Source: Deroplatys truncata
Lineage: Eukaryota > Arthropoda > Insecta > Mantodea > Mantidae
NCBI GenBank assembly: GCA_030765065.1
Contig: CM060985.1
Span: 5,270,001 to 5,334,000 of the forward strand
Length of the DNA: 64,000 nucleotides
Direction: 5' to 3'
The position numbers were made by a program, and so were the translations under genes. Of this stretch, positions 14,581 through 59,270 are shown piece after piece. The notes under the pieces were generated by a model. It ran no database searches. It was not told the origin of the DNA and worked only from the letters and a program-made list of their open reading frames with translations. Within the stretch, counting starts at the first letter, position 1, and each line of letters begins with the position of its first letter.

Positions 14581-15124
14581 TGACCATCGGGAGTGAGGGA
14601 GAGGTGAGGGGAGAGACCTGAAACCTGGAAAGAGTACCACACACTTGTACTTCTACCAGTGACACCCGGGAGTGAGGGAGAGGTGAGGGGAGAGACCTGA
14701 AACCTGGACAGAGTACCACACACTTGTACTTCTACCAGTGACACCCGGGAGTGAGGGAGGTGAGGGGAGCGACCCGAAACCTGGACACAACACCGCACAC
14801 TTGTACTTCTACCAGTGGCACCCGGGAGTGCGGGAGAGGTGAGGGGAGACACCTAAAACCTGGACACAACACCACACACTTGTACTTCTACCAGTGACAC
14901 CCGGGAGTGAGGGAGAGGTGAGGGGAGCAACCCGAAACCTGGACACAACACCGCACACTTGTACTTCTACCAGTGACACCCGGGAGTGAGGGAGAGGTGA
15001 GGGGAGAGACCCGAAACCTGGACACAACACCGCACACTTGTACTTCTACCAGTGACACCCGGGAGTGAGGGAGAGGTGAGGGGAGAGACCTGAAAACTGG
15101 ACACAACACCGCACACTTGTACTT

Positions 15125-16860
15125 CTACCAGTGACACCCGGGAGTGAGGGAGAGGTGAGGGGAGAGACCCGAAACCTGGACAGAGTACCACACACTTGTA
15201 CTTCTACCAGTGACACTCGGAAGTGAGGTAGAGGTGAGGGGAGCGACCTGAAACCTGGACAGAGTACCACACACTTGTACTTCTACCAGTGACACCCGGG
15301 AGTAGGGAGAGGTGAGGGGAGAGACCCGAAACCAGGACACAACACCGCACACTTGTACTTCTACCAGTGACACCCGGGAGTGAGGGAGAGGTGAGGGGAG
15401 AGACCTAAAACCTGGACACAACACCACACGCTTGTACTTCCACCAGTGACACCCGGGAGTGAGGGAGAGGTGACGGGAGAGACCTGAATCCTGGACACAA
15501 CACCGCACACTTGTACTTCTACCAGTGACACCCGGGAGTGAGGGAGAGGTGAGGGGACAGACCTAAAACCTGGACACAACACCACACACTTGTACTTCTA
15601 CCAGTGACACCCGGGAGTGAGGGAGAGGTGAGGGGAGAGACCCGAAACCTGGACAGAGTACCACTCACTTGTACTTCTACCAGTGACACCCGGGAGTGAG
15701 GGAGAGGTGAGGGGAGAGACCCGAAACCTGGACAGAGTACCAAAAAACTTGTACTTCTACCAGTGGCACCCGGGAGTGAGGGAGAGGTGAGGGGAGAGAC
15801 CCGAAACCTGGACAGCCCACCGCACACTTGTACTTCTACCAGTGACACCCGGGAGTGAGGGAGAGGTGAGGGGAGAGACCTGAAACCTGGACAGAGTACC
15901 ACACACTTGTACTTCTACCAGTGATCCCCGGGAGTGAGGGAGAGGTGAGGGGAGAGACCCGAAACCTGGACACAACACCACACACTTGTACTTCTACCAG
16001 TGACACCCGGGAGTGAGGGAGAGGTGAGGGGAGAGACCCCAAACCTGGACACAACACCACACACTTGTACTTCTACCAGTGACAACCGGGAGTGAGGGAG
16101 AGGTGAGGGGAGAGACCCGAAAACTGGACAGAGTACCACACACTTGTACTTCTACCTGTGACACCCGGGAGTGAGGAAGAGGTGAGGGGAGAGACCCGAA
16201 ACCTGGACAGAGTACCACACACTTGTACTTCTACCAGTGACACCCGGGAGTAGGGAGAGGTGAGGGGAGAGACCTGAAAACTGGACACAACACCACAAGC
16301 TTGTACTTCTACCAGTGACACCAGGGAGTGAGGGAGAGGTGAGGTGAGAGACCTGAAACCTGGACACAACACCACACGCTTGTACTTCTACCAGTGACAC
16401 CCGGGAGTGAGGGAGAGGTGAGGGGAGAGACCTAAAAACTGGACACAACACCGCACACTTTTACTTCTACCAGTGACACCCGGGAGTGAGGGAGAGGTGA
16501 GGGGAGAGACCCGAAACCTGGACAGAGTACCACACACTTGTACTTCTACCAGTGACACTCGGAAGTGAGGTAGAGGTGAGGGGAGCGACCTGAAACCTGG
16601 ACAGAGTACCACACACTTGTACTTCTACCAGTGACACCCGGGAGTAGGGAGAGGTGAGGGGAGAGACCCGAATCCTGGACACAACACCGCACACTTGTAC
16701 TTCTACCAGTGACACCCGGGAGTGAGGGAGAGGAGAAGGGAGAGACCTGAAACCTGGACACAACACCGCACACTTGTACTTCTACCAGTGACACCCGCGA
16801 GTGAGGGAGAGGTGAGGGGAGAGACCCGAAACCTGGACACAACACCACACACTTGTACTT
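15125..16860. repeat. higher-order block 1a of the 79-bp array
   Basis: About 22 units that recur, in the same order of rare variants, in the next block. Matching points are 1,736 bp apart in the left part and 1,815 bp apart in the rest. Markers include the unit with TACCAAAAAACTTG near 15740, GACAACCGGGAG near 16081, and the ACACTCGGAAGTGAGGTAG unit near 16555. Confidence 0.8.
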
Positions 16861-18675
16861 CTACCAGTGACACCCGGGAGTGAGGGAGAGGTGAGAGGAG
16901 AGACCCGAAACCTGGACAGAGTACCACACACTTGTACTTCTACCAGTGACACTCGGAAGTGAGGTAGAGGTGAGGGGAGCGACCTGAAACCTGGACAGAG
17001 TACCACACACTTGTACTTCTACCAGTGACACCCGGGAGTAGGGAGAGGTGAGCGGAGAGACCCGAAACCTGGACACAACACCGCACACTTGTACTTCTAC
17101 CAGTGACACCCGGGAGTGAGGGAGAGGTGAGGGGAGAGACCTAAAACCTGGACACAACACCACACGCTTGTACTTCCACCAGTGACACCCGGGAGTGAGG
17201 GAGAGGTGACGGGAGAGACCTGAATCCTGGACACAACACCGCACACTTGTACTTCTACCAGTGACACCCGGGAGTGAGGGAGAGGTGAGGGGACAGACAT
17301 AAAACCTGGACACAACACCACACACTTGTACTTCTACCAGTGACACCCGGGAGTAAGGGAGAGGTAAGGGGAGAGACTCGAAACCTGGACACAACACCAC
17401 ACACTTGTACTTCTACCAGTGACACCCGGGAGTGAGGGAGAGGTGAGGGGAGAGACCCGAAACCTGGACAGAGTACCACTCACTTGTACTTCTACCAGTG
17501 ACACCCGGGAGTGAGGGAGAGGTGAGGGGAGAGACCCGAAACCTGGACAGAGTACCAAAAAACTTGTACTTCTACCAGTGGCACCCGGGAGTGAGGGAGA
17601 GGTGAGGGGAGAGACCCGAAACCTGGACAGCGCACCGCACACTTGTACTTCTACCAGTGACACCCGGGAGTGAGGGAGAGGTGAGGGGAGAGACCTGAAA
17701 CCTGGACAGAGTACCACACACTTGTACTTCTACCAGTGATCCCCGGGAGTGAGGGAGAGGTGAGGGGAGAGACCCGAAACCTGGACACAACACCACACAC
17801 TTGTACTTCTACCAGTGACACCCGGGAGTGAGGGAGAGGTGAGGGGAGAGACCCGAAACCTGGACACAACAACACACACTTGTACTTCTACCAGTGACAA
17901 CCGGGAGTGAGGGAGAGGTGAGGGGAGAGACCCGAAAACTGGACAGAGTACCACACACTTGTACTTCTACCTGTGACACCCGGGAGTGAGGAAGAGGTGA
18001 GGGGAGAGACCCGAAACCTGGACAGAGTACCACACACTTGTACTTCTACCAGTGACACCCGGGAGTAGGGAGAGGTGAGGGGAGAGACCTGAAAACTGGA
18101 CACAACACCACAAGCTTGTACTTCTACCAGTGACACCAGGGAGTGAGGGAGAGGTGAGGTGAGAGACCTGAAACCTGGACACAACACCACACGCTTGTAC
18201 TTCTAACAGTGACACCCGGGAGTGAGGGAGAGGTGAGGGGAGAGACCTAAAAACTGGACACAACACCGCACACTTTTACTTCTACCAGTGACACCCGGGA
18301 GTGAGGGAGAGGTGAGGGGAGAGACCCGAAACCTGGACAGAGTACCACACACTTGTACTTCTACCAGTGACACTCGGAAGTGAGGTAGAGGTGAGGGGAG
18401 CGACCTGAAACCTGGACAGAGTACCACACACTTGTACTTCTACCAGTGACACCCGGGAGTAGGGAGAGGTGAGGGGAGAGACCCGAATCCTGGACACAAC
18501 ACCGCACACTTGTACTTCTACCAGTGACACCCGGGAGTGAGGGAGAGGAGAAGGGAGAGACCTGAAACCTGGACACAACACCGCACACTTGTACTTCTAC
18601 CAGTGACACCCGCGAGTGAGGGAGAGGTGAGGGGAGAGACCCGAAACCTGGACACAACACCACACACTTGTACTT
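16861..18675. repeat. higher-order block 1b of the 79-bp array
   Basis: Tandem copy of the preceding block with one additional unit (about 23 units). It carries the same markers: TACCAAAAAACTTG near 17555, GACAACCGGGAG near 17896, and ACACTCGGAAGTGAGGTAG near 18370. The near-identity of variant order shows that a single event duplicated many units together. Confidence 0.8.
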
Positions 18676-21199
18676 CTACCAGTGACACCCGGGAGTGAGG
18701 GAGAGGTGAGGGGAGAGACCCGAAACCTGGACAGAGTACCACACACTTGTACTACTACCAGTGATCCCCGGGAGTGAGGGAGAGGTGAGGGGAGAGACCC
18801 GAAACCTGGACAGAGTACCACACACTTGTACTTCTACCAGTGACACCCGGGAGTGAGGGAGAGGTGAGGGGAGAGACCCGAAACCTGGACACAACACCAC
18901 ACACTTGTACTTCTACCAGTGACACCCGGGAGTGAGGGAGAAGTGAGGGGAGAGACCCGAAACCTGGACAGAGTACCGCACACTTGTACTTCTACCAGTG
19001 ACACACGGGAGTGAGGGAGAGGTGAGGGCAGAGACCCGAAACCTGGACACAACACCACACACTTGTACTTCTACCAGTGACACACGGGAGTGAGGGAAAG
19101 GTGAGGGGAGAGAACCGAAACCTGGACACAACACCGCACACTTGTACTTCTACCAGTGCCACCCGGGAGGGAGAGGTGAGGGGAGAGACCCGAAACCTGG
19201 ACAGAGTACCACACACTTGTACTTCTACCAGTGACACTCGGGAGTGAGGGAGAGGTGAGGGGAGAGACCTGAAACCTGGACAGAGTACCACACACTTGTA
19301 CTTCTACCAGTGACACCCGGGAGTGAGGGAGAGGTGAGGGGAGAGACCTGAAACCTGGACAGAGTACCACACACTTGTACTTCTACCAGTGACACCCGGG
19401 AGTTAGGAAGAGGTGAGGAAGGAGACCTGAAATCTGGACACAACACCACACACTTGTACTTCTAATAGTGACACCCGGGAGTGAGGGAGAGGTGAGGAGA
19501 GCGACCCGAAACCTGGACAGAGTACCACACACTTGTACTTCTACCAGTGACACCCGGGAGTGAGGGAGAGGTGAGGGGAGAGACCCGAAACCTGGACACA
19601 ACACCACACACTTGTACTTCTACCAGTGACACCCGGAAGTGAGGGAGAGGTGAGGGGAGACACCCGAAACCTGGACACAACACCGCACACTTGTACTTCT
19701 ACCAGTGACACCCGGGAGTGAGGGGGAGGTGAGGGGAGAGACCTGAAACCTGGACAGAGTACCACACACTTGTACTTCTACCAGTAACACCCGGGAGTGA
19801 GGGGGAGGTGAGGGGAGAGACCTGAAACTTGGACAGAGTACCGCACACTTGTACTTCTACCAGTGACACCCGGGAGTGAGGGAGAGGTGAGGAGACAGAC
19901 CTGAAAGCTGGACAGAGTACCACACACTTGTACTTCTACCAGTGACACCCGGGAGTGAGGGAGAGGTGAGGGGAGAGACCTGAAACCTGGACACAACACC
20001 CCACACTTGTACTTCTACCAGTGACACCCGGGAGTGAGGGAGAGGTGAGGGGAGAGACCCGAAATCTGGACAGAGTACCGCACACTTTTACTTCTACCAG
20101 TGACGCCCGGGAGTGAGGGAGAGGTGAGGGGAGAGACCCGAAACCTGGACACAACACCGCACACTTGTACTTCTACCAGTGACACCCGGGAGTGAGGGAG
20201 ACGTGCGGGGAGAGACCTGAAACCTGGACACAACACCACACACTTGTACTTCCACCAGCGACACCTGGGTGTGAGGGAGAGGTGAGGGGAGAGACCTGAA
20301 ACCTGGACACAACACCACACACTTGTACTTCTACCAGTGACACCCGGGAGTGAGGGAGAGGTAAGGGGAGAGACCTGAAACCTGGACACAACACCGCACA
20401 CTTGTACTTCCACCAGTGATCCCCGGGAGTGAGGGGGAGGTGAGGGCAGAGACCTGAAACCTGGACAGAGTACCACACAATTGTACTTCTACCAGTGACA
20501 CCCGGGAGTGAGGGGGAGGTGAGGGGAGAGACCTGAAACCTGCACAGAGTACAACACACTTGTACTTCTACCAGTGACACCCGGGAGTGAGGGAGAGGTG
20601 AGGGGAGAGACCTGAAACCTGGACACAACACCGCACACTTGTACTTCTACCAGTGACACCCGGGAGTGAGGGAGAGGTGAGGGGACAGACCTAAAACCTG
20701 GACAGAGTACCACACACTTGTACTTCTACCAGTGATCCCCGGGAGTGAGGGAGAGGTGAGGGGAGAGACCCGAAACCTGGACAGAGTACCACACACTTGT
20801 ACCTCTACCAGTGACACCCGGGAGTGAGGGAGAGGTGAGGGGAGAAACCTGAAACCTGGACACAACACCGCACACTTGTACTTCTACCAGTGACACCCGG
20901 GAGTGAGGGAGACGTGAGGGGAGAGACCTAAAACCTGGCCACAACACCACACACTTGTACTTCTACCAGTGACACCCGGGAGTGAGGGAGAGGTAAGGGG
21001 AGAGACCTGAAACCTGGACACAACACCGCACACTTGTACTTCCACCAGCGATCCCCGGGAGTGAGGGGGAGGTGAGGGGAGAGACCTGAAACCTGGACAG
21101 AGTACCACACACATGTACTTCTACCAGTGACACCCGGGAGTGAGGGGGAGGTGAGAGGAGAGACCTGAAACCTGGACAGAGTACAACACACTTGTACTT

Positions 21200-24100
21200 C
21201 TACCAGTGACACCCGGGAGTGAGGGAGAGGTGAGGGGAGAGACCTGAAACCTGGACACAACACCGCACACTTGTACATCTACCAGTGACACCCGGGAGTG
21301 AGGGAGAGGTGAGGGGAGAGACCCGAAACCTGGACAGAGTACCACACACTTGTACTTCTACCAGTGATCCCCGGGAGTGAGGGAGAGGTGAGGGGAGAGA
21401 CCCGAAACCTGGACAGAGTACCACACACTTGTACTTCTACCAGTGACACCCGGGAGTGAGGGAGAGGTGAGGGGAGAGACCTGAAACCTGGACACAACAC
21501 CGCACACTTGTACTTCTACCAGTGACACCCGGGAGTGAGGGAGAGGTGAGGGGAGAGACCTGAAACCTGGACAGAGTACCACAAACTTGTACTTCTACCA
21601 GTGACACCCGGGAGTGAGGGAGAGGTGAGGGGAGAGACGTGAAACCTGGACAGAGCACCACACACTTGTACTTCTACCAGTGACACCCGGGAGTGAGGGA
21701 GAGGTGAGGAGAGAGACCTGAAACCTGGACAGAGTACCACACACTTGTACTTCTACCAGTGACACCCGTGGAGTGAGAGAGAGGTGAGAGGAGAGACCCG
21801 AAACCTGGACACAACACCACACACTTGTACTCCTAAAGGTGACACCCGGGAGTGATGGAGAGGGGAGGGGAGAGACCTGAAACCTGGACAGAGTACCACA
21901 CACTTGTACTTCTACCAGTGATCCCCAAAGGCGAGGGAGAGGGAGGGGAGAGACCTGAAACCTGGACAGAGTACCACACACTTGTACTTCTACCAGTGAC
22001 CCCCGGGAGTGAGGGAGAGGTGAGGGGAGAGACCCGAAACCTGGACACAACACCACACACTTGCACTTCTACCAGTGGCACCCGGGAGTGAGGGAGAGGT
22101 GAGGGGAGAGCCCTGAAACCTGGACACAACACCACACACTTGTACTTCTACCAGTGACACCGGGAGTGAAGGAGAGGTGAGGGGAGAGAACCGAAACCTG
22201 GACTGAGTACCACACACTTGTACTTCTACCAGTGACACCCGGGAGTGAGGGGGAGGTGAGGGTAGAGACCCGAAACCTGGACACAACACCACGCTTGTAC
22301 TTCTACCAGTGACACCCCGGAGTGAGGGAGAGGTGAGGGGAGAGACCCGAAACCTGGACACAACACCACACACTTGTACTTCTACCAGTGACACCCGGGA
22401 GTGAGGGAGAGGTAAGGGGAGGGACCCGAAACCTGGACACAACACCACACACTTGTACTTCTACAAGTGACACCCGGGAGGGAGTGGTGAGGGGAGGGAC
22501 CCGAAACCTGGACACAACACCACACACTTGTACTTCTACCAGTGACACCCGGGAGGGAGAGGTGAGTGGAGGGACCCGAAACCTGACCACAACACCACAC
22601 ACTTGTACTTCTACCAGTGACCCCCGGGAGTGAGGGAGAGGTGAGAGAGAGACCTGAAACCTGGACACAACACCACACACTTGAACTTCTACCAGTGACA
22701 CCCGGGAGTGAGGGAGAGGTGAGGGGAGAGACCCGAAACCTGGACAGAGTACCACACACTTGTACTTCCACCAGTGACACCCGGGAGTGTGGGAGATGTG
22801 TGGGGAGATACCTGAAACCTGGACACAACACCGCACACTTGTACTTCTACCAGTGACACCCGGGAGTGAGGGAGAGGTGAGAGGAGAGACCCGAAACCTG
22901 GACAGAGTACCACACACTTGTACCTCTACCAGTGACACCCGGGAGTGAGGAAGACGTAAGGGGAGGGACCCGAAACCTGGACAGAGTACCACACACTTGT
23001 ACTTCTACCAGTGACACCCGGGAGTGAGGGAGAGGTGAGGGGAGAGACTCGAAACCTGGACAGAGTACCACACACTTGTACTTCTACCAGTGACACCCGG
23101 GAGTGAGGGAGAGGTGAGGGGAGAGACCTGAAACCTGGACACAACACCGCACACTTGTATTTCTACCAGTGACACCCGGGAGTGAGAGAGAGGTAGGGGA
23201 GGGACACGAAACCTGGACAGAGTACCACACTCCTGTACTTCTACCAGTGACACCCGGTAGTGAGGGAGAGGTGAGGGGAGAGACCCCAAACCTGGACAGA
23301 GTACCACACACTTGTACTTCTACCAGTGACCCCCGGGAGTGAGGGAGAGGTGAGAGAGAGACCTGAAACCTGTACACAACACCACACACTTGTACTTCTA
23401 CCAGTGACACCCGGGAGTGAGGGAGAGGTGAGGGGAGAGACCCGAAACCTGGACAGAGTACCACACACTTGTACTTCTACCAGTGACACCCGGGAGTGTG
23501 GGAGATGTGTGGGGAGAGACCTGAAACCTGGACACAACACCGCACACTTGTACTTCTACCAGTGACACCCGGGAGTGAGGGAGAGGTGAGAGGAGAGACC
23601 CGAAACCTGGACAGAGTACCACACACTTGTACTTCTACCAGTGACATCCGGGTGGGAGAGGTGAGGGGAGGGACCCGAAACCTGGACACAACACCACACA
23701 CTTGTACTTCTACCAGTGACACCCGGGAGTGAGGGAGAGGTGAGGGGAGCGACCCGAAACCTGGACACAACACCACACACTTGTACTTCTACAAGTGACA
23801 CCCGGGAGGGAGTGGTGAGGGGAGGGACCCGAAACCTGGACACATCACCACACACTTGTACTTCTACCAGTGACACCCGGGAGGGAGAGGTGAGTGGAGG
23901 GACCCGAAACCTGACCACAACACCACACACTTGTACTTCTACCAGTGACCCCCGGGAGTGAGGGAGAGGTGAGAGAGAGACCTGAAACCTGGACACAACA
24001 CCGCACACTTGTACTTCTACCAGTGACACCCGGGAGTGAGGGAGAGGTGAGAAGAGAGACCCGAAACCTGGACAGAGTACCACACACTTGTACTTCTACC

Positions 24101-26900
24101 AGTGACACCCGGGAGTGAGGGAGACGTGAGGGGAGGGACCCGAAACCTGGACAGAGTACCACACACTTGTACTTCTACCAGTGACACCCGGGAGTGAGGG
24201 AGAGGTGAGTGGAGAGACTCGAAACCTGGAATGAGTACCACACAATTGTACTTCTACCAGAGATACCCGGGAGAGAGGGAGAGGTGAGGGGAGAGACCTG
24301 AAACCTGGACACAACACCGCACACTTGTACTTCTACCAGTGACACCCGGGAGTGAGGGAGAGGTGAGGGGAGAGACCCGAAACCTGGACAGAGTACCACA
24401 CACTTGTACTTCTACCAGAGACACCCGGGAGTGAGGGAGAGGTGAGGGGAGCGACCTGAAACCTGGACACAACACCACACACTTGTACTTCTACCAGTGA
24501 CACCCGGGAGGGAGAGGTGAGGGGAGGGACCCGAAACCTGGACACAACACCACACACTTGTACTTCTACCAGTGACACCCGGGAGTGAGGGAGAGGTGAG
24601 GGGATGGACCCGAAACCTGGACAGAGTACCACACACTTGTACTTCTACGAGTGACACCCGGGAGTGAGGGAGAGGTGAGGGGAGAGACCCGAAACCTGGA
24701 CTGAGTACCACACACTTGTACTTCTACCAGTGACACCCGGGTGTGAGGGAGAGGTGAGGGGAGAGACCTGAAACCTGGACAGAGTACCACACACTTGTAC
24801 TTCTACCAGTGACACCCGGGAGTGAGGGAGAGGTGAGGGGAGAGACCCGAAACCTGGACACAACACCGCACACTTGTACTTCCACCAGTGATCCCCGGGA
24901 GTGAGGGGGAGGTGAGGGGAGAGACCTGAAACCTGGACAGAGTACCACACACTTGTACTTCTACTAGTGACACCCGGGAGTGAGGGGGAGGTGAGGGGAG
25001 AGACCTGAACCTGGACAGAGTACAACACACTTGTACTTCTACCAGTGACACCCAGGAGTGAGTGAGAGGTGAGGGGAGAGACCTGAAACCTGGACACAAC
25101 ACCGCACACTTGTACTTCTACCAGTGACACCCGGGAGTGAGGGAGAGGTGAGGGGAGAGACCCGAAACCTGGACAGAGTACCACACACTTGTACTTCTAC
25201 CAGTGATCCCCGGGAGTGAGGGAGAGGTGAGGGGAGAGACCCGAAACCTGGACAGAGTACCACACACTTGTACCTCTACCAGTGACACCCGGGAGTGAGG
25301 GAGAGGTGAGGGGACAAACCTGAAACCTGGACACAACACCGCACACTTGTACTTCTACCAGTGACACCCGGGAGTGAGGGAGACGTGAGGGGAGAGACCT
25401 GAAACCTGGCCACAACACCACACACTTGTACTTCCACCAGCGACACCTGGGTGTGAGGGAGAGGTGAGGGGAGAGACCTGAAACCTGGACACAACACCAC
25501 ACACTTGTACTTCTACCAGTGACACCCGGGAGTGAGGGAGAGGTAAGGGGAGAGACCTGAAACCTGGACACAACACCGCACACTTGTACTTCCACCAGTG
25601 ATCCCCGGGAGTGAGGGGGAGGTGAGGGGAGAGACCTGAAACCTGGACAGAGTACTACACACTTGTACTTCTACCAGTGACACCCGGGAGTGAGGGGGAG
25701 GTGAGGGGAGAGACCTGAAACCTGGACAGAGTACAATAAACTTGTACTTCTACCAGGGACACCCGGGAGTGAGGGAGAGGTGAGGGGAGAGACCTGAAAC
25801 CTGGACACAACACCGCACACTTGTACTTCTACCAGTGACACCCGGGAGTGAGGGAGAGGTGAGGGGAGAGACCCGAAACCTGGACAGAGTACCACACACT
25901 TGTACTTCTACCAGTGATCCCCGGGAGTGAGGGAGAGGTGAGGGGAGAGACCCGAAACCTGGACAGAGTACCACACACTTGTACTTCTACCAGTGACACC
26001 CGGGAGTGAGGGAGAGGTGAGGGGAGAGACCTGAAACCTGGACACAACACCGCACACTTGTACTTCTACCAGTGACACCCGGGAGTGAGGGAGAGGTGAG
26101 GGGAGAGACCTGAAACCTGGACAGAGTACCACAAACTTGTACTTCTACCAGTGACACCCGGGAGTGAGGGAGAGGTGAGGGGAGAGACGTGAAACCTGGA
26201 CAGAGCACCACACACTTGTACTTCTACCAGTGACACCCGGGAGTGAGGGAGAGGTGAGGAGACAGACCTGAAACCTGGACAGAGTACCACACACTTGTAC
26301 TTCCACCAGTGACACCCGTGGAGTGAGAGAGAGGTGAGAGGAGAGACCCGAAACCTGGACAGAGTACCACACACTTGTACTTCTACCAGTGACACCGGGA
26401 GTGAGGGAGAGGTGAGGGGAGAGAACCGAAACCTGGACAGAGTACCACACACTTGTACTTCTACCAGTGACACACGGGAGTGAGGGAGAGGTGAGGGTAG
26501 AGACCCGAAACCTGGACACAACACCACGCTTGTACTTCTACCAGTGACACCCGGGAGTGAGGTAGAGGTGAGGGGAGAGATCTGAAACCTGGACACAACA
26601 CCACACACTTGTACTTCTACCAGTGACACCCGGGAGTGAGGGAGAGGTGAGGGGAGAGACCTGAAACCTGGACACAACACCACGCTTGTACTTCTACAAG
26701 TGACACCCGGGAGTGAGGGAGAGGTCAGGGGAGAGACTCCAAACCTGGACACAACACCGCACACTTGTACTTCCACCAGTGACACCCGGGAGTGAGGGAG
26801 AGGTGAGGGGAGAAACCCGAAACCTGGACAGAGTACCAGAAACTTGTATTTCTACCAGTGACCCCCGGGAGTGAGGGAGGTGAGGGGAGCGACCCGAAAC
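21200..26900. repeat. higher-order block 2a of the 79-bp array
   Basis: The order of rare variants here recurs in the next block. Matching points are 6,201 bp apart at 21.2-22.1 kb, 6,435 bp apart at 22.9-26.1 kb, and about 6.5 kb apart near 26.5 kb, so a few units were gained or lost after duplication. Markers include CACCCGTGGAGTGAGAGAG near 21765 and 26315, CCCCAAAGGCGAGGGAGAG near 21922, and GTGTGGGAGATGTGTGGGG near 22787 and 23497. Ends are approximate. Confidence 0.75.
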
Positions 26901-44700: not shown

Positions 44701-47700
44701 CTACCAGTGACACCCGGGAGTGAGGGAGAGGTGAGGGGAGAGACCCGAAACCTGGACACAACACCACACACTTGTACTTCTACCAGTGACACCCGGGAGT
44801 GAGGGAGAGGTGAGGGGAGAGACCCGAAACCTGGACAGAGTACCACACACTTGTACTTCTACCAGTGACAGCCGTGAGGGAGGGAGGTGAGGGGAGAGAC
44901 CTGAAACCTGCACAGAGTACCACACACTTGTACTTCTACCAGTGACAGCCGTGAGGGAGGGAGGTGAGGGGAGAGACCTGAAACCTGCACAGAGTACCAC
45001 ACACTTGTACTTCTACCAGTGACACCCGGGAGTGAGGGAAGTGAGGGGAGAGACCTGAAACCTGCACAGAGTACCACACACTTGTACTTCTTCCAGTGAC
45101 ACCCGGGAGTGAGGGAAGTGAGGGGAGAGACCCGAAACCTGGACAGTGTACCACACACTTGTACTTCTACCAGTGACACCCGGGAGTGAGGGAAGTGAGG
45201 GGAGAGACCCGAAACCTGGACAGTGTACCACACACTTGTACTTCTTCCAGTGACACCCGGGAGTGAGGGAAGTGAGGGGAGAGACCCGAAACCTGGACAG
45301 TGTACCACACACTTGTACTTCTTCCAGTGACACCCGGGAGTGAGGGAGAGGTGAGGGGAGATACCTGAAACCTGGACACAACACCACACACTTGTACTTC
45401 TTCCAGTGACACCCGGGAGTAAGGGAGAGGTGAGGGGAGAGACACGAAACCTAGACACAACACCACACACTTGTACTTCTACCAGTGACACCCGGGAGTG
45501 AGGGAGAGGTGAGGGGAGAGACACGAAACCTGGACACAACACCACACACTTGTACTTCTTCCAGTGACACCCGGGAGTAAGGGTGAGGTGAAGGGAGAGA
45601 CCTGAAACCTGGACACAACACCGCACACTTGTACTTCTACCAGTGACACCCGGGAGTGAGGGAGAGGTGAAGGGAGAGACCTGAAACCTGGACACAACAC
45701 CGCACACTTGTACTTCTACCAGTGACACCCCGGAGTGAGGGAGAGGTGAGGGGAGAGACCCGAAACCTGGACAGAGTACCACACACTTGTACTTCTACCA
45801 GTGACACCCGGGAGGGAGAGGTGAGGGGAGGGACCCGAAACCTGGACACAACACCACACACTTGTACTTCTACCAGTGACACCCGGGAGTGAGGGAGAGG
45901 TGAGGGGAGGGACCCGAAACCTGGACACAACACCACACACTTGTACTTCTACAAGTGACACCCGGGAGGGAGTGGTGAGGGGAGGGACCCGAAACCTAGA
46001 CACAACACCACACACTTGTACTTCTACCAGTGACACCCGGGAGTGAGGGAGAGGTGAGGGGAGAGACACGAAACCTGGACAGAGTACCACACACTTGTAC
46101 TTCTACCAGTGACCCCCGGGGGTGAGGGAGAGGTGAGAGAGAGACCTGAAACCTGGACACAACACCACACACTTGTACTTCTACCAGTGACACCCGGGAG
46201 TGAGGGAGAGGTGAGGGGAGAGCCCCGAAACCTGGACAGAGTACCACACACTTGTACTTCTACCAGTGACACCCGGGAGTGTGGGAGATGTGTGGGGAGA
46301 TACCTGAAACCTGGACACAACACCGCACACTTGTACTTCTACCAGTGACACCCGGGAGTGAGGGAGAGGTGAGAGGAGAGACCCGAAACCTGGACAGAGT
46401 ACCACACACTTGTACTTCTACCAGTGACACCCGGGAGTGAGGGAGACGTGAGGGGAGAGACCCGAAACCTGGACAGAGTACCACACACTTGTACTTCTAC
46501 CAGTGACACCCGGGAGGGAGAGGTGAGGGGAGAGACCTGAAACCTGGACACAACACCGCACACTTGTACTTCTACCAGTGACACCCGGGAGTGAGGGAGA
46601 GGTGAGGGGAGAGACCCGAAAACTGGACAGAGTACCACACACTTGTACTTCTACCAGTGACACCCGGGAGTGAGGGAGAGGTGAGGGGAGGGACCCGAAA
46701 CCTGGATAGAGTACCACACACTTGTACTTCTACGAGTGACACCCGGGAGTGAGGGAGAGGTGAGGGGAGCGACCTGAAACCTGGACACAACACCACACAC
46801 TTTTACTTCTACAAGTGACACCCGGGAGGGGGTGGTGAGGGGAGGGACCCGAAACCTGGACACAACACCACACACTTGTACTTCTACCAGTGACACCCGG
46901 GAGGGAGAGGTGAGGGGAGGGACCCGAAACCTGGACACAACACCACACACTTGTACTTCTACCAGTGACACCCGGGAGTGAGGGAGAGGTGAGGGGAGAG
47001 ACCCGAAACCTGGACACAACACCGCACACTTGTACTTCTACCAGTGACACCCGGGAGTGAGGGAGAGGTGAGGGGAGAGACCCGAAACCTGGACACAACA
47101 CCGCACACTTGTACTTCTACCAGTGACACCCGGGAGTGAGGGAGAGGTGAGGGGAGAGACCCGAAACCTGGACACAACACCACACACTTGTACTTCTACC
47201 AGTGACACCCGGGAGTGAGGGAGAGGTGAGGGGAGAGACCTAAAACCTGGACACAACACCGCACACTTGTACTTCTACCAGTGACACCCGGGAGTGAGGG
47301 AGAGGTGAGGGGAGAGACCTAAAACCTGGACACAACTCCACACACTTGTACTTCTACCAGTGACACCCGGGAGTGAGGGAGAGGTGAGGGGAGAGACCTG
47401 ACACCTGGACAGAGTACCACACACTTGTACTTCTACCAGTGACACCCGGGAGTGAGGGAGAGGTGAGGGGAGAGACCTGAAACCTGGACAGAGTACCACA
47501 CACTTGTACTTCTACCAGTGACACCCGGGAGTGAGGGAGAGGTGAGGGGAGAGACCCGAAACCTGGACACAACACCACACACTTGTACTTCTACCAGTGA
47601 CACCCGGGAGTGAGGGAGAGGTGAGGGGAGAGACCTGAAACCTGGACAGAGTACCACACACTTGTACTTCTACCAGTGACCCCCGGGAGTGAGGGAGAGG

Positions 47701-50700
47701 TGAGAGGAGAGTCCCAAAACCTGGACACAACACCACACACTTGCACTTCTACCAGTGGCACCCGGGAGTGAGGGAGATGTGTGGGGAGATACCTGAAACC
47801 TGGACACAACACCGCACACTTGTACTTCTACCAGTGACACCCGGGAGTGAGGGAGAGGTGAGAGGAGAGACCCGAAACCTGGACAGAGTACCACACACTT
47901 GTACTTCTACCAGTGACACCCGGGAGTGTGGGAGATGTGTGGGGAGATACCTGAAACCTGGACACAACACCGCACACTTGTACTTCTACCAGTGACACCC
48001 GGGAGTGAGGGAGAGGTGAGAGGAGAGACCCGAAACCTGGACAGAGTACCACACACTTGTACTTCTACCAGTGACACCCGGGAGTGAGGGAGACGTGAGG
48101 GGAGAGACCCGAAACCTGGACAGAGTACCACACACTTGTACTTCTACCAGTGACACCCGGGAGGGAGAGGTGAGGGGAGAGACCTGAAACCTGGACACAA
48201 CACCGCACACTTGTACTTCTACCAGTGACACCCGGGAGTGAGGGAGAGGTGAGGGGAGAGACCCGAAACCTGGACAGAGTACCACACACTTGTACTTCTA
48301 CCAGTGACACCCGGGAGTGAGGGAGAGGTGAGGTGAGGGACCCGAAACCTGGATAGAGTACCACACACTTGTACTTCTACGAGTGACACCCGGGAGTGAG
48401 GGAGAGGTGAGGGGAGCGACCTGAAACCTGGACACAACACCACACACTTTTACTTCTACAAGTGACACCCGGGAGGGGGTGGTGAGGGGAGGGACCCGAA
48501 ACCTGGACACAACACCACACACTTGTACTTCTACCAGTGACACCCGGGAGGGAGAGGTGAGGGGAGATACCCGAAACCTGGACACAACACCACACACTTG
48601 TACTTCTACCAGTGACACCCGGGAGTGAGGGAGAGGTGAGGGGAGAGACCCGAAACCTGGACACAACACCGCACACTTGTACTTCTACCAGTGACACCCG
48701 GGAGTGAGGGAGAGGTGAGGGGAGAGACCCGAAACCTGGACACAACACCGCACACTTGTACTTCTACCAGTGACACCCGGGAGTGAGGGAGAGGTGAGGG
48801 GAGAGACCCGAAACCTGGACACAACACCACACACTTGTACTTCTACCAGTGACACCCGGGAGTGAGGGAGAGGTGAGGGGAGAGACCTAAAACCTGGACA
48901 CAACACCGCACACTTGTACTTCTACCAGTGACACCCGGGAGTGAGGGAGAGGTGAGGGGAGAGACCTAAAACCTGGACACAACTCCACACACTTGTACTT
49001 CTACCAGTGACACCCGGGAGTGAGGGAGAGGTGAGGGGAGAGACCTGACACCTGGACAGAGTACCACACACTTGTACTTCTACCAGTGACACCCGGGAGT
49101 GAGGGAGAGGTGAGGGGAGAGACCTGAAACCTGGACAGAGTACCACACACTTGTACTTCTACCAGTGACATCCGGGAGTGAGGGAGAGGTGAGGGGAGAG
49201 ACCCGAAACCTGGACACAACACCACACACTTGTACTTCTACCAGTGACACCCGGGAGTGAGGGAGAGGTGAGGGGAGAGACCTGAAACCTGGACAGAGTA
49301 CCACACACTTGTACTTCTACCAGTGACCCCCGGGAGTGAGGGAGAGGTGAGAGGAGAGTCCCAAAACCTGGACACAAAACCACACACTTGCACTTCTACC
49401 AGTGGCACCCGGGAGTGAGGGAGAGGTGAGGGGAGAGACCTGAAACCTGGACACAACACCACACACTTGTACTTCTACCAGTGACACCCGGGAGTGAGGG
49501 AGAGGTGAGGGGAGATACCCAAAACCTGGACAGAGTACCACACACTTGTACTTCTACCAGTGACACCCGGGAGTGAGGGAGAGGTGAGGGGAGAGACCCG
49601 AAACCTGGACAGAGTACCACACACTTGTACTTCTACCAGTGACTCCCGGGAGGGAGAGGTGAGGGGAGGGACCCGAAACCTGGACACAACACCACACACT
49701 TGTACTTCTACCAGTGACACCCGGGAGGGAGAGGTGAGGGGAGAGACCTGAAACCTGGACACAACACCGCACACTTGTACTTCTACCAGTGACACCCGGG
49801 AGTGGGGGGAGAGACCTGAAACCTGGACACAACACCGCACACTTGTACTTCTACCAGTGACACCCGGGAGTGAGGGAGAGGTGAGGGGAGAGACCCGAAA
49901 CCTGGACAGAGTACCACACACTTGTACTTCTACCAGTGACACTCGGGAGGGAGAGGTGAGGGGAGGGACCCGAAACCTGGACACAACACCACACACTTGT
50001 ACTTCTACCAGTGACACCCGGGAGTGAGGGAGAGGTGAGGGGAGGGACCCGAAACCTGGACACAACACCACACACTTGTACTTCTACAAGTGACACCCGG
50101 GAGGGAGTGGTGAGGGGAGGGACCCGAAACCTGGACACAACACCACACACTTGTACTTCTACCAGCGACACCCGGGAGGGAGAGGTGAGGGGAGGGACCC
50201 GAAACCTGGACACAACACCACACACTTGTACTTCTACCAGTGACACCCCGGAGTGAGGGAGAGGTGAGGGGAGAGACCCGAAACCTGGACACAACACTGC
50301 ACACTTGTATTTCTACCAGTGACACCCGGGAGTGAGGGAGAGGTGAGGGGAGAGACACGAAACCTGGACACAACACCACACACTTGTACTTCTACCAGTG
50401 ACACCCGGGAGTGAGGGAGAGGTGAGGGAAGGGACCCGAAACCTGGACAGAGTACCACACACTTGTACTTCTACCAGTGACCCCCGGGAGTGAGGGAGAG
50501 GTGAGGGGAGAGACCTGAAACCTGGACACAACACCACACACTTGTACTTCTACCAGTGACACCCGGGAGTGAGGGAGGTGAGGGGAGAGACCCGAAACCT
50601 GGACAGAGTACCACACACTTGTACTTCTACCAGTGACCCCCGGGAGTGAGGGAGAGGTGAGGGGAGAGACCTGAAACCTGGACACAACACCACACACTTG

Positions 50701-53700
50701 TACTTCTACCAGTGATCCCCGGGAGTGAGGGAGAGGTGAGGGGAGAGACCCGAAACCTGGACAGAGTACCACACATTTGTACTTCTACCAGTGACACCCG
50801 GGAGTGAGGGAGAGGTGAGGGGAGAGACCCGAAACCTGGACACAACACCACACACTTGTACTTCTACCAGTGACACCCGGGAGTGAGGGAGAGGTGAGGG
50901 GAGAGACCCGAAACCTGGACAGAGTACCACACACTTGTACTTCTACCAGTGACAGCCGTGAGGGAGGGAGGTGAGGGGAGAGACCTGAAACCTGCACAGA
51001 GTACCACACACTTGTACTTCTACCAGTGACAGCCGTGAGGGAGGGAGGTGAGGGGAGAGACCTGAAACCTGCACAGAGTACCACACACTTGTACTTCTAC
51101 CAGTGACACCCGGGAGTGAGGGAAGTGAGGGGAGAGACCTGAAACCTGCACAGAGTACCACACACTTGTACTTCTTCCAGTGACACCCGGGAGTGAGGGA
51201 AGTGAGGGGAGAGACCCGAAACCTGGACAGTGTACCACACACTTGTACTTCTACCAGTGACACCCGGGAGTGAGGGAAGTGAGGGGAGAGACCCGAAACC
51301 TGGACAGTGTACCACACACTTGTACTTCTTCCAGTGACACCCGGGAGTGAGGGAAGTGAGGGGAGAGACCCGAAACCTGGACAGTGTACCACACACTTGT
51401 ACTTCTTCCAGTGACACCCGGGAGTGAGGGAGAGGTGAGGGGAGAGACCTGAAACCTGGACACAACACCACACACTTGTACTTCTTCCAGTGACACCCGG
51501 GAGTAAGGGAGAGGTGAGGGGAGAGACACGAAACCTGGACACAACACCACACACTTGTACTTCTACCAGTGACACCCGGGAGTGAGGGAGAGGTGAGGGG
51601 AGAGACACGAAACCTGGACAGTGTACCACACACTTGTACTTCTTCCAGTGACACCCGGGAGTAAGGGTGAGGTGAGGGGAGAGACCTGAAACCTGGACAC
51701 AACACCGCACACTTGTTCTTCTACCAGTGACACCCGGGAGTGAGGGAGAGGTGAAGGGAGAGACCTGAAACCTGGACACAACACCGCACACTTGTACTTC
51801 TACCAGTGACACCCGGGAGTGGGGGGAGAGACCTGAAACCTGGACACAACACCGCACACTTGTACTTCTACCAGTGACACCCGGGAGTGAGGGAGAGGTG
51901 AGGGGAGAGACCCGAAACCTGGACAGAGTACCACACACTTGTACTTCTACCAGTGACACTCGGGAGGGAGAGGTGAGGGGAGGGACCCGAAACCTGGACA
52001 CAACACCACACACTTGTACTTCTACCAGTGACACCCGGGAGTGAGGGAGAGGTGAGGGGAGGGACCCGAAACCTGGACACAACACCACACACTTGTACTT
52101 CTACAAGTGACACCCGGGAGGGAGTGGTGAGGGGAGGGACCCGAAACCTGGACACAACACCACACACTTGTACTTCTACCAGCGACACCCGGGAGGGAGA
52201 GGTGAGGGGAGGGACCCGAAACCTGGACACAACACCACACACTTGTACTTCTACCAGTGACACCCCGGAGTGAGGGAGAGGTGAGGGGAGAGACCCGAAA
52301 CCTGGACACAACACTGCACACTTGTATTTCTACCAGTGACACCCGGGAGTGAGGGAGAGGTGAGGGGAGAGACACGAAACCTGGACACAACACCACACAC
52401 TTGTACTTCTACCAGTGACACCCGGGAGTGAGGGAGAGGTGAGGGAAGGGACCCGAAACCTGGACAGAGTACCACACACTTGTACTTCTACCAGTGACCC
52501 CCGGGAGTGAGGGAGAGGTGAGGGGAGAGACCTGAAACCTGGACACAACACCACACACTTGTACTTCTACCAGTGACACCCGGGAGTGAGGGAGGTGAGG
52601 GGAGAGACCCGAAACCTGGACAGAGTACCACACACTTGTACTTCTACCAGTGACCCCCGGGAGTGAGGGAGAGGTGAGGGGAGAGACCTGAAACCTGGAC
52701 ACAACACCACACACTTGTACTTCTACCAGTGATCCCCGGGAGTGAGGGAGAGGTGAGGGGAGAGACCCGAAACCTGGACAGAGTACCACACATTTGTACT
52801 TCTACCAGTGACACCCGGGAGTGAGGGAGAGGTGAGGGGAGAGACCCGAAACCTGGACACAACACCACACACTTGTACTTCTACCAGTGACACCCGGGAG
52901 TGAGGGAGAGGTGAGGGGAGAGACCCGAAACCTGGACAGAGTACCACACACTTGTACTTCTACCAGTGACAGCCGTGAGGGAGGGAGGTGAGGGGAGAGA
53001 CCTGAAACCTGCACAGAGTACCACACACTTGTACTTCTACCAGTGACAGCCGTGAGGGAGGGAGGTGAGGGGAGAGACCTGAAACCTGCACAGAGTACCA
53101 CACACTTGTACTTCTACCAGTGACACCCGGGAGTGAGGGAAGTGAGGGGAGAGACCTGAAACCTGCACAGAGTACCACACACTTGTACTTCTTCCAGTGA
53201 CACCCGGGAGTGAGGGAAGTGAGGGGAGAGACCCGAAACCTGGACAGTGTACCACACACTTGTACTTCTACCAGTGACACCCGGGAGTGAGGGAAGTGAG
53301 GGGAGAGACCCGAAACCTGGACAGTGTACCACACACTTGTACTTCTTCCAGTGACACCCGGGAGTGAGGGAAGTGAGGGGAGAGACCCGAAACCTGGACA
53401 GTGTACCACACACTTGTACTTCTTCCAGTGACACCCGGGAGTGAGGGAGAGGTGAGGGGAGAGACCTGAAACCTGGACACAACACCACACACTTGTACTT
53501 CTTCCAGTGACACCCGGGAGTAAGGGAGAGGTGAGGGGAGAGACACGAAACCTGGACACAACACCACACACTTGTACTTCTACCAGTGACACCCGGGAGT
53601 GAGGGAGAGGTGAGGGGAGAGACACGAAACCTGGACAGTGTACCACACACTTGTACTTCTTCCAGTGACACCCGGGAGTAAGGGTGAGGTGAGGGGAGAG

Positions 53701-56700
53701 ACCTGAAACCTGGACACAACACCGCACACTTGTTCTTCTACCAGTGACACCCGGGAGTGAGGGAGAGGTGAAGGGAGAGACCTGAAACCTGGACACAACA
53801 CCGCACACTTGTACTTCTACCAGTGACACCCCGGAGTGAGGGAGAGGTGAGGGGAGAGACCCGAAACCTGGACAGAGTACCACACACTTGTACTTCTACC
53901 AGTGACACCCGGGAGGGAGAGGTGAGGGGAGGGACCCGAAACCTGGACACAACACCACACACTTGCACTTCTACCAGTGACACCCGGGAGTGAGGGAGAG
54001 GTGAGGGGAGGGACCCGAAACCTGGACACAACACCACACACTTGTACTTCTACAAGTGACACCCGGGAGGGAGTGGTGAGGGGAGGGACCCGAAACCTAG
54101 ACACAACACCACACACTTGTACTTCTACCAGTGACACCCGGGAGTGAGGGAGAGGTTAGGGGAGAGACACGAAACCTGGACACAACACCGCACACTTGTA
54201 TTTCTACCAGTGACACCCGGGAGTGAGAGAGAGGTAGGGGAGAGACACGAAACCTGGACAGAGTACCACACACTTGTACTTCTACCAGTGACACCCGGTA
54301 GTGAGGGAGAGGTGAGGGGAGAGACCCGAAACCTGGACAGAGTACCACACACTTGTACTTCTACCAGTGACCCCCGGGGGTGAGGGAGAGGTGAGAGAGA
54401 GACCTGAAACCTGGACACAACACCACACACTTGTACTTCTACCAGTGACACCCGGGAGTGAGGGAGAGGTGAGGGGAGAGCCCCGAAACCTGGACAGAGT
54501 ACCACACACTTGTACTTCTACCAGTGACACCCGGGAGTGTGGGAGATGTGTGGGGAGATACCTGAAACCTGGACACAACACCGCACACTTGTACTTCTAC
54601 CAGTGACACCCGGGAGTGAGGGAGAGGTGAGAGGAGAGACCCGAAACCTGGACAGAGTACCACACACTTGTACTTCTACCAGTGACACCCGGGAGTGAGG
54701 GAGACGTGAGGGGAGAGACCCGAAACCTGGACAGAGTACCACACACTTGTACTTCTACCAGTGACACCCGGGAGGGAGAGGTGAGGGGAGAGACCTGAAA
54801 CCTGGACACAACACCGCACACTTGTACTTCTACCAGTGACACCCGGGAGTGAGGGAGAGGTGAGGGGAGAGACCCGAAAACTGGACAGAGTACCACACAC
54901 TTGTACTTCTACCAGTGACACCCGGGAGTGAGGGAGAGGTGAGGGGAGGGACCCGAAACCTGGATAGAGTACCACACACTTGTACTTCTACGAGTGACAC
55001 CCGGGAGTGAGGGAGAGGTGAGGGGAGCGACCTGAAACCTGGACACAACACCACACACTTTTACTTCTACAAGTGACACCCGGGAGGGGGTGGTGAGGGG
55101 AGGGACCCGAAACCTGGACACAACACCACACACTTGTACTTCTACCAGTGACACCCGGGAGGGAGAGGTGAGGGGAGGGACCCGAAACCTGGACACAACA
55201 CCACACACTTGTACTTCTACCAGTGACACCCGGGAGTGAGGGAGAGGTGAGGGGAGAGACCCGAAACCTGGACACAACACCGCACACTTGTACTTCTACC
55301 AGTGACACCCGGGAGTGAGGGAGAGGTGAGGGGAGAGACCCGAAACCTGGACACAACACCGCACACTTGTACTTCTACCAGTGACACCCGGGAGTGAGGG
55401 AGAGGTGAGGGGAGAGACCCGAAACCTGGACACAACACCACACACTTGTACTTCTACCAGTGACACCCGGGAGTGAGGGAGAGGTGAGGGGAGAGACCTA
55501 AAACCTGGACACAACACCGCACACTTGTACTTCTACCAGTGACACCCGGGAGTGAGGGAGAGGTGAGGGGAGAGACCTAAAACCTGGACACAACTCCACA
55601 CACTTGTACTTCTACCAGTGACACCCGGGAGTGAGGGAGAGGTGAGGGGAGAGACCTGACACCTGGACAGAGTACCACACACTTGTACTTCTACCAGTGA
55701 CACCCGGGAGTGAGGGAGAGGTGAGGGGAGAGACCTGAAACCTGGACAGAGTACCACACACTTGTACTTCTACCAGTGACACCCGGGAGTGAGGGAGAGG
55801 TGAGGGGAGAGACCCGAAACCTGGACACAACACCACACACTTGTACTTCTACCAGTGACACCCGGGAGTGAGGGAGAGGTGAGGGGAGAGACCTGAAACC
55901 TGGACAGAGTACCACACACTTGTACTTCTACCAGTGACCCCCGGGAGTGAGGGAGAGGTGAGAGGAGAGTCCCAAAACCTGGACACAACACCACACACTT
56001 GCACTTCTACCAGTGGCACCCGGGAGTGAGGGAGAGGTGAGGGGAGAGACCTGAAACCTGGACACAACACCACACACTTGTACTTCTACCAGTGACACCC
56101 GGGAGTGAGGGAGAGGTGAGGGGAGATACCCAAAACCTGGACAGAGTACCACACACTTGTACTTCTACCAGTGACACCCGGGAGTGAGGGAGAGGTGAGG
56201 GGAGAGACCCGAAACCTGGACAGAGTACCACACACTTGTACTTCTACCAGTGACTCCCGGGAGGGAGAGGTGAGGGGAGGGACCCGAAACCTGGACACAA
56301 CACCACACACTTGTACTTCTACCAGTGACACCCGGGAGGGAGAGGTGAGGGGAGAGACCTGAAACCTGGACACAACACCGCACACTTGTACTTCTACCAG
56401 TGACACCCGGGAGTGAGGGGAGAGACCTGAAACCTGGACACAACACCGCACACTTGTACTTCTACCAGTGACACCCGGGAGTGAGGGAGAGGTGAGGGGA
56501 GAGACCCGAAACCTGGACAGAGTACCACACACTTGTACTTCTACCAGTGACACTCGGGAGGGAGAGGTGAGGGGAGGGACCCGAAACCTGGACACAACAC
56601 CACACACTTGTACTTCTACCAGCGACACCCGGGAGTGAGGGAGAGGTGAGGGGAGGGACCCGAAACCTGGACACAACACCACACACTTGTACTTCTACAA

Positions 56701-58855
56701 GTGACACCCGGGAGGGAGTGGTGAGGGGAGGGACCCGAAACCTGGACACAACACCACACACTTGTACTTCTACCAGCGACACCCGGGAGGGAGAGGTGAG
56801 GGGAGGGACCCGAAACCTGGACACAACACCACACACTTGTACTTCTACCAGTGACACCCCAGAGTGAGGGAGAGGTGAGGGGAGAGACCCGAAACCTGGA
56901 CACAACACTGCACACTTGTATTTCTACCAGTGACACCCGGGAGTGAGGGAGAGGTGAGGGGAGAGACACGAAACCTGGACACAACACCACACACTTGTAC
57001 TTCTACCAGTGACACCCGGGAGTGAGGGAGAGGTGAGGGAAGGGACCCGAAACCTGGACAGAGTACCACACACTTGTACTTCTACCAGTGACCCCCGGGA
57101 GTGAGGGAGAGGTGAGGGGAGAGACCTGAAACCTGGACACAACACCACACACTTGTACTTCTACCAGTGACACCCGGGAGTGAGGGAGGTGAGGGGAGAG
57201 ACCCGAAACCTGGACAGAGTACCACACACTTGTACTTCTACCAGTGACCCCCGGGAGTGAGGGAGAGGTGAGGGGAGAGACCTGAAACCTGGACACAACA
57301 CCACACACTTGTACTTCTACCAGTGATCCCCGGGAGTGAGGGAGAGGTGAGGGGAGAGACCCGAAACCTGGACAGAGTACCACACATTTGTACTTCTACC
57401 AGTGACACCCGGGAGTGAGGGAGAGGTGAGGGGAGAGACCCGAAACCTGGACACAACACCACACACTTGTACTTCTACCAGTGACACCCGGGAGTGAGGG
57501 AGAGGTGAGGGGAGAGACCCGAAACCTGGACAGAGTACCACACACTTGTACTTCTACCAGTGACAGCCGTGAGGGAGGGAGGTGAGGGGAGAGACCTGAA
57601 ACCTGCACAGAGTACCACACACTTGTACTTCTACCAGTGACAGCCGTGAGGGAGGGAAGTGAGGGGAGAGACCTGAAACCTGCACAGAGTACCACACACT
57701 TGTACTTCTTCCAGTGACACCCGGGAGTGAGGGAAGTGAGGGGAGAGACACGAAACCTGGACAGTGTACCACACACTTGTACTTCTACCAGTGACACCCG
57801 GGAGTGAGGGAAGTGAGGGGAGAGACCCGAAACCTGGACAGTGTACCACACACTTGTACTTCTTCCAGTGACACCCGGGAGTGAGGGAAGTGAGGGGAGA
57901 GACCCGAAACCTGGACAGTGTACCACACACTTGTACTTCTTCCAGTGACACCCGGGAGTGAGGGAGAGGTGAGGGGAGAGACCTGAAACCTGGACACAAC
58001 ACCACACACTTGTACTTCTTCCAGTGACACCCGGGAGTAAGGGAGAGGTGAGGGGAGAGACACGAAACCTGGACACAACACCACACACTTGTACTTCTAC
58101 CAGTGACACCCGGGAGTGAGGGAGAGGTGAGGGGAGAGACACGAAACCTGGACACAACACCACACACTTGTACTTCTTCCAGTGACACCCGGGAGTAAGG
58201 GAGAGGTGAGGGGAGAGACACGAAACCTGGACACAACACCACACACTTGTACTTCTACCAGTGACACCCGGGAGTAAGGGAGAGGTGAGGGGAGAGACAC
58301 GAAACCTGGACACAACACCACACACTTGTACTTCTACCAGTGACACCCGGGAGTGAGGGAGAGGTGAGGGGAGAGACACGAAACCTGGACACAACACCAC
58401 ACACTTGTACTTCTTCCAGTGACACCCGGGAGTAAGGGAGAGGTGAGGGGAGAGACACGAAACCTGGACACAACACCACACACTTGTACTTCTACCAGTG
58501 ACACCCGGGAGTGAGGGAGAGGTGAGGGGAGAGACACGAAACCTGGACACAACACCACACACTTGTACTTCTTCCAGTGACACCCGGGAGTAAGGGAGAG
58601 GTGAGGGGAGAGACACGAAACCTGGACACAACACCACACACTTGTACTTCTACCAGTGACACCCGGGAGTAAGGGAGAGGTGAGGGGAGAGACTCGAAAC
58701 CTGGACACAACACCACACACTTGTACTTCTACCAGTGACACCCGGGAGTAAGGGAGAGGTGAGGGGAGAGACACGAAACCTGGACACAACACCACACACT
58801 TGTACTTCTACCAGTGACACCCGGGAGTAAGGGAGGGTGAGGGGAGAGACCCAAA
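41750..58855. repeat. nested higher-order region of the 79-bp array
   Basis: Three marker blocks recur at unequal spacings. Block X (with GGATAGAGTACC and GAGGGGGTGGTGAGGGG units) is near 41.8-43.2, 46.1-47.6, 47.8-49.2 and 54.4-55.8 kb. Block Y (with the shortened GGAGTGGGGGGAGAGACC unit) is near 43.4-44.9, 49.5-51.0 and 56.1-57.5 kb, and a part of it also at 51.8-52.9 kb. Block Z (with GACAGCCGTGAGGGAGGG and CTTCTTCCAGTG units) follows near 44.9, 50.95, 52.97 and 57.56 kb. Offsets of 4,358, 6,084, 2,017, 6,611 and 8,258 bp between exact matches imply several rounds of duplication. Confidence 0.8.
57396..58855. repeat. stop-less variant block at the right end of the array
   Basis: Many units here have CTTCTTCCAGTG in place of CTTCTACCAGTG. 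On the minus strand this turns the recurrent TAG (in CTGGTAGAAG) into AAG, so one frame stays open for 413 codons (58637 to 57396). Similar blocks at 45.1-45.6, 51.2-51.7 and 53.2-53.7 kb give frames of 307, 381 and 307 codons. The predicted peptide is a low-complexity repeat with no known domain, and 79-bp periodicity makes it change register every unit. I regard it as non-coding. Confidence 0.7.
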
Positions 58856-59244: not shown

Positions 59245-59270
59245 CTCTCTCTCTCTCTCTCTCTCTCTCT
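59245..59270. repeat. (CT)13 microsatellite
   Basis: An uninterrupted run of CT dinucleotides immediately beside the tRNA-like segment. Confidence 0.95.

Follow-up and report, generated by a model that had tools for sequence, protein, structure and literature searches.

A 44-kb array of 79-bp units very probably derived from the 3' unit of a SINE

Satellites often cannot easily be traced to their origin, since the source has disappeared. Among systems in which short elements and tandem repeats meet, the primate SINE-VNTR-Alu (SVA) is a SINE-related element with an internal tandem repeat, and RET76 of Reticulitermes termites is an insect satellite whose unit length is similar to that of the array described here. 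In squamates, sSats consist of tandem repeats of a SINE portion with the rest of the SINE at the edge and have independent origins, as set out in the available part of Vassetzky, Kosushkin and Ryskov (2023, PMC10702118). According to the same part of PMC10702118, they prefer chromosome ends, reach up to about 1000 units and are more uniform in longer arrays; its authors consider the restriction of such satellites to squamates uncertain, and the term direct repeats has 0 occurrences in it. HaSE1 and HaSE2 of Helicoverpa are short tRNA-derived SINEs comprising an A/B-box-like head, a body, a tail and target-site duplications, and the words 'tandem' and 'satellite' are absent from the available part of their description (PMC3272025). 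The literature searched, outside which most subscription papers lie, yielded no case of an insect SINE-derived satellite among the papers listed; the word 'SINE' is absent from a recent review of transposon-derived satellites, and one review lists PMC10702118 among its references.

The window is the whole 64-kb stretch of DNA analysed, C11:5270001-5334000, within a genome assembly of 4.29 Gb and 818 contigs, of which C1-C16 measure 134-707 Mb each and C17-C20 2.2 Mb or less. C16, at 707 Mb, is twice as long as the next longest among C1-C20. The window contains 0 N, and the features on which the analysis is built are the following.

14588..58852, minus strand (the SINE sense): array of about 565 units, period 79, very probably from the SINE 3' unit (TRF and profile search, controls 0)
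49772..53800, end approximate, minus strand: recent-growth block pair, in which 2,076 bases recur exactly at an offset of 2,017
58859..59236, minus strand: SINE body and head (blastn to consensus 18-448, 71.7% identity; aligned with other loci)
59190..59243, minus strand: tRNA-like head, with an A-box-like motif at 59243-59232 and a B-box-like motif at 59200-59190 (by eye)
59245..59270, no strand assigned: CT/GA dinucleotide run at the SINE 5' end (TRF, 13 copies)

TRF describes the array at 14588-58852 as having period 79, 565.4 copies, 91% matches and 1% indels, and profile search of the window recovers 565 units scoring 22-46 bits, of which 557 are nearly full-length and run without exception on the minus strand. 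The profile, made from 14 SINE copies that each carry one unit and are not arrays, gave 0 matches in the controls, namely 10 dinucleotide-shuffled versions of the array, the reversed array and the window flanks. The 564 spacings between 565 array anchors are 79 (414), 75 (60), 78 (43), 77 (35), 80 (6), 68 (4) and 74 (2) bp; since all of them lie within 68-80 bp, nothing transposon-sized fits inside. The earlier note had reported a single-orientation, uninterrupted and transposon-free array of about 560 units at 14581..58855, and TRF, anchor spacings and profile search together bear this out, with the coordinates correct to within a few bases. The span of 44 kb is the length as assembled. This is the longest array seen, followed among those with both ends in view by L017 at about 5.5 kb; because several other arrays run off the end of the fetched stretch, it may not be the longest in the genome.

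The window flanks contain further repeats. TRF finds a 152-bp unit at 4118-4832 (4.7 copies, 99% matching) and long degenerate ACAT/ATAC-type microsatellites at 60185-60497 and 62582-63992, the second nearly reaching the right edge. A Mos1-like mariner transposase fragment occupies 58-663 on the minus strand (Pfam HTH_48, E 5.5e-12), and stretches of the left flank, such as 8344-8947 and 13304-13908, resemble sequences flanking many fetched loci, forming another dispersed repeat family. Two minus-strand tRNA-like sequences at 6957-7029 and 61712-61785 (Aragorn tRNA-Thr, Rfam tRNA 43.5 bits) may be tRNA genes or the head regions of other SINEs.

At its right edge, the array directly adjoins a SINE body (58859-59236) that the earlier note had overlooked. 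On the minus strand, head and body run from 59236 to 58859 and the array continues down to 14588. Searching the genome with the window unit returned diverged relatives at other loci; eight of nine regions fetched contain arrays with periods of 76-101, and the ninth, L019, holds a single unit inside an element. With this element, 20 of 20 further regions, fetched after a search with an 89-base unit, align over at least part of its length. The consensus from 14 elements measures 588 bases, the full SINE being about 590 bp. It opens with a head bearing A- and B-box-like motifs, continues through a body to the unit at 463-551 and ends in a CCTTTA-repeat tail. The unit spans about 89 bp and carries a TTCGGG direct repeat at both ends. 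In the head, the B-box-like GGTTCGATCCC and the A-box-like motif were recognised by eye; Aragorn found no tRNA in the consensus head, nor did Rfam in the head of L050.

Single-unit copies of this SINE are numerous. A query consisting of an 89-base unit, for which the best 40 of 2,370 candidates were scored, gave 55 matches, 38 of them single units and 17 in two arrays. Among 21 SINE loci (L019 and L040-L059), all but one of which came from the single-unit query, profile search assigns exactly one unit to 20 and 13 units to L051, and identity to the consensus by best piece is 72-89% (median 83%). Target-site duplications of 12-15 bases are present at five of the 21 loci, namely L019, L045 and L048 (which have common flanks), L047 and L050, with scores of 9-15 compared to mostly 3-8 in controls, single controls reaching 10 and 11; in the other 16 loci they are not clear. 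Dispersed copies, target-site duplications and a simple-repeat (CCTTTA) tail characterise the element as a SINE. Genome-wide, allowing up to 2 mismatches and with control counts of 0, the body-to-unit joint occurs 6,783 times and the unit-to-unit joint 512 times.

The match between window unit and SINE unit is directly visible in alignment: 66 of 74 aligned columns are identical, with 8 substitutions counted by eye, and the window consensus unit further differs by a 15-bp deletion and 5 inserted bases. We consider it very probable that the window array is a SINE-derived satellite, grown in place from the SINE 3' unit. Counting against this reading, the body is only 71.7% identical to the consensus. 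At the left edge the array ends within a unit, and neither a SINE tail nor a target-site duplication was found there. Also against it are the two of 14 arrays that lack a body at their edge, the 16 of 21 SINE loci without clear target-site duplications, and the missing support from Aragorn and Rfam for a tRNA origin of the head. The earlier statement that the unit is not a known satellite was fair from the sequence alone; its source can be identified as the 3' part of a SINE that occurs at thousands of genomic sites.

The same arrangement is observed elsewhere in the genome, for which at least 26 array loci, the window's included, are known among the matches listed.

C1, at 12.3, 16.3, 17.16, 17.31 and 17.33 Mb: array loci
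C3, at 84.9, 85.1, 86.9 and 87.5 Mb: array loci
C4 at 11.5 Mb, C6 at 169.8 Mb, C9 at 227.8 Mb, C14 at 199.0 Mb, C16 at 25.7 Mb and C18 at 0.4 Mb: array loci, that on C6 known from one match of about 1.6 units
C8, at 122.3, 147.4 and 150.7 Mb: array loci
C10, at 254.24, 254.29, 254.46, 256.7 and 259.1 Mb: array loci
C11, at 5.24, 5.3 (the window) and 8.26 Mb: array loci

DNA was inspected at 14 array loci besides the window. A SINE body adjoins 12 of the 14 arrays whose body-side edge is in hand (the window, L011, L014, the first array of L015, L016, L017, L018, L051, L061, L062, L063 and L064), and is lacking at that edge in L013 and in the second array of L015; in L012 and L060 this edge lies outside the fetched DNA. 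A tail-like stretch occurs at the expected place, exactly in L011, with 2 mismatches in L018, with 3 errors in 18 bases in L013, L061 and L063, and with 4 errors in L015, L016 and L051, in L051 also by alignment; that of L014 was seen by eye. The looser of these matches are weak, because the same loose pattern matches 4 times by chance in the window flanks. Flanks are alike between different arrays, TRF match percentages vary between arrays, and array-specific deletions set their units apart.

These edges bear on whether an independent satellite came first, with SINEs inserted in or beside it and the SINE taking its unit from the satellite. Satellites can capture elements at their edges, and the missing SINE tail at the left edge of the window array would agree with such an origin. 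However, thousands of dispersed SINEs hold one unit at the same place between body and tail, and the body stands at the same unit end in 12 of 14 arrays, rendering this origin hardly credible.

Several individual loci show further structure. L064 (C11:5239900-5242400) is an array that starts about 29 kb left of the window in the orientation opposite to the window array, with period 81 and no fewer than 20 units; it has a SINE body of its own, and its unit deletion differs from that of the window array. L015 1-8862 (C1:12.324-12.333 Mb) contains two arrays of opposite orientation, of 33 and 54 units, about 1 kb apart, with a body beside the first only. Unrelated tandem repeats lie at L011 3-1577 (52 bp), L012 7469-8996 (110 bp), L016 7864-9001 (85 bp) and L013 4366-4680 (105 bp), so that, with such repeats within a few kb of SINE-derived arrays, the surroundings look rich in several kinds of minisatellite. 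L013 also has units of a further type, about 101 bp long and joined differently (by eye), which suggests duplication through another breakpoint.

A common joint is seen directly across the arrays: GGTTTCGGGTCTCTCC, with variants, consists of the 3' bracket fused to the 5' bracket, as slippage or unequal exchange between the TTCGGG brackets would produce. The sharing of this joint, together with the body on one side and the tail on the other side of several arrays, would also be expected if the arrays had been spread by retroposition of a mobile SINE subfamily that, like the primate SVA, had two or more units from the start, with only the length of the arrays changing afterwards. Such a subfamily is distinctly unlikely, considering that 20 of 21 SINE loci hold a single unit, that deletions in the units vary from array to array, and that arrays do not group by descent. 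A tree was built from 26 of 28 extracted SINE bodies, L018 and L054 being dropped as too short and later-fetched loci falling outside it. The 'array' label, carried by 7 rows, each an array locus, requires 6 changes on this tree, compared to 6.3 for shuffled labels. Since 13 of the 23 inner branches have weak support, the 6 changes are an estimate; no fewer than 2 are required by well-supported branches, and 0% of 200 bootstrap trees unite the arrays. The scatter of array-bearing SINEs over the SINE tree indicates that expansion recurred.

Young blocks are observed inside the window array, which comprises 246 distinct units; compared in pairs, units differ by 7.2 edits on average. Nested duplicate blocks, 99.55-100% identical and at most 47 units long, include 360 of the 564 units. 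They comprise 47 units at a distance of 82 units (99.73%), 41 at 85 (99.69%), 28 at 78 (99.91%), 26 in direct succession (100%) and ten others. In the clearest example of recent growth, the unit distance matrix shows 26 units (49772-51788) repeated exactly, with 0 edits, directly afterwards from 51789. The block distances share no common period, as expected from repeated unequal exchange, and the nested near-identical blocks point to recent unequal exchange or a similar process. The absence of transposons may be due to this youth, since much of the array is young. The earlier note had offered turnover or strong constraint as explanations, of which turnover is supported by the nested blocks; of constraint there is no sign, and none is needed, given 246 distinct units, their edit distance and stops in all six frames.

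Because the array contains exact internal repeats as long as 2,076 bases, its 44-kb length might be an assembly artefact and the real array shorter. A simple assembly duplication is unlikely for the larger blocks, because their differences are scattered (for example, 10 edits in 47 units), and the window is without N. Partial expansion in the assembly could still have occurred, since some blocks are exact. Overall, we regard an artefact as unlikely.

A function of the array in coding, as a structured RNA or as a ribozyme was weighed and appears highly improbable. Open minus-strand stretches extend up to 417 codons between stops, and a minus frame matches Pfam Pea-VEAacid at 30.9 bits (cut-off 25). 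That score, however, is added up over repeated occurrences of one 8-residue piece of a 15-position model, and no single stretch passes, the best covering 8 residues. Moreover, 79 is not a multiple of 3, stops occur in all six frames with 190-198 per minus frame, and the word GGTAGAAG, containing TAG, is present in 469 copies; protein coding was rejected on the stops and the fragmentary Pfam match. RNA structure was likewise rejected, since none of four sequences folds better than its shuffles (z 0.21, 1.24, 1.30 and 0.45, the first two values being those of a single unit on its two strands), and Rfam matched no ribozyme family. Units of the SINE-derived family contain GATGAG-GGG-AGAGA-CCC-GAAAC, which resembles a hammerhead core, but the two bases before GATGAG do not fit that core. 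With Rfam covariance models, no hammerhead reached the gathering score in the window or 8 loci, and none appeared up to E = 10 in L013 3700-4500, where the two matches, asR3 and SNORA43, fall far below their cut-offs; the hammerhead was dismissed on this poor fit and the lack of an Rfam match. No function is required to explain the array.

Other candidate identities and causes were also set aside. A strict four-tract G-quadruplex motif, counted in near-full units only, is uneven between arrays (L014 22/22 units, L017 46/62, L018 4/6, L013 4/8, L016 3/11, L012 1/11, L011 0/11, L015 0/84, L051 0/13, the window 5/557 and single units 4/20) and is not a general cause of expansion. An rDNA identity was rejected in view of the absence of an rRNA match from the window. 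A 28-base pattern had no match in viral contigs, a 19-base pattern had two matches in prokaryote genomes against about 4 expected by chance (hand estimate), and the string GGTGAGGGGAGAGACC was not found in the literature searched, most subscription papers being outside it. A telomeric identity was excluded, the telomeres here being CCTAA/TTAGG; dense CCTAA repeats lie close to the starts of C3, C4, C9, C10, C15 and C16, which fits an insect or other arthropod.

Arrays lie closer to chromosome ends than single copies do. For the test of this, performed post hoc after array positions were seen, 24 array loci, the best-scoring candidates among the matches listed, were merged by hand into 11 clusters, with the unplaced C18 locus and C11 5.24 Mb outside. 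The clusters have a median distance of 14.8 Mb to a chromosome end, compared to 74.8 Mb for 38 single copies (p = 3.3e-5); against 19 autosomal single copies p = 1.5e-4, and relative position gives p = 0.004. At a 34-Mb cut, also chosen post hoc, 9/10 clusters stand against 7/38 and 8/92 single copies, the rank tests being independent of the cut. The 92 are exact joints on C1 and C2, which agree with the distal bias of arrays (earlier list of 10 clusters; exact matches only). The C3 cluster, located mid-chromosome, and the C6 locus, at 55 Mb from an end, are exceptions.

A likely course of events would begin with insertion of a SINE of about 590 bp on the minus strand at the window site. Mispairing of the TTCGGG brackets, by replication slippage or unequal exchange, would have doubled the segment of about 89 bp, which in this copy would also have lost 15 bp and gained 5 bases, to yield the length of 79. 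The array would then have grown to 44 kb, and would keep being renewed, through unequal exchange, first from unit to unit and later involving blocks of tens of units; at some point the SINE would have lost its 3' tail. We infer both the order of these events and the molecular process, which may have been unequal sister exchange, break-induced copying or circle re-insertion. More broadly, and at slightly less than an even chance, the SINE may carry a built-in satellite seed between its TTCGGG copies, with surroundings rather than sequence choosing which copies grow, and with recurrent distal growth through the same 6-bp joint. If so, retroposition has scattered near-identical seeds by the thousands, making the genome a replicated natural experiment on satellite birth. 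This single genome contains the source element, single-copy seeds, short arrays and a very long one together, which permits a direct test of what makes one copy in thousands grow, its sequence or its proximity to a chromosome end.

The array illustrates one way in which satellite DNA is born, and its place among known systems can be outlined. RET76 is likened to the window unit by length alone. With respect to SVA, the present element differs in that 20 of 21 loci are single-unit and expansion appears to take place in situ. The SINE family of the window resembles HaSE1 and HaSE2 in layout and in having target-site duplications, by description in the available part of PMC3272025, its own head being only A/B-box-like by eye. 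With squamate sSats, as characterised in the available part of PMC10702118, the window family shares its anatomy, independent origins and a preference for chromosome ends, found here post hoc: the unit comes from a SINE part that exists elsewhere as single-unit copies, and the rest of the SINE stands at the array edge (58859-59236 in the window). It differs from those sSats in its probably insect host, its other SINE, its unit of about 76-101 bp and the bracketing direct repeat at the joint. SINE-derived satellites thereby reach beyond squamates, probably to an insect.
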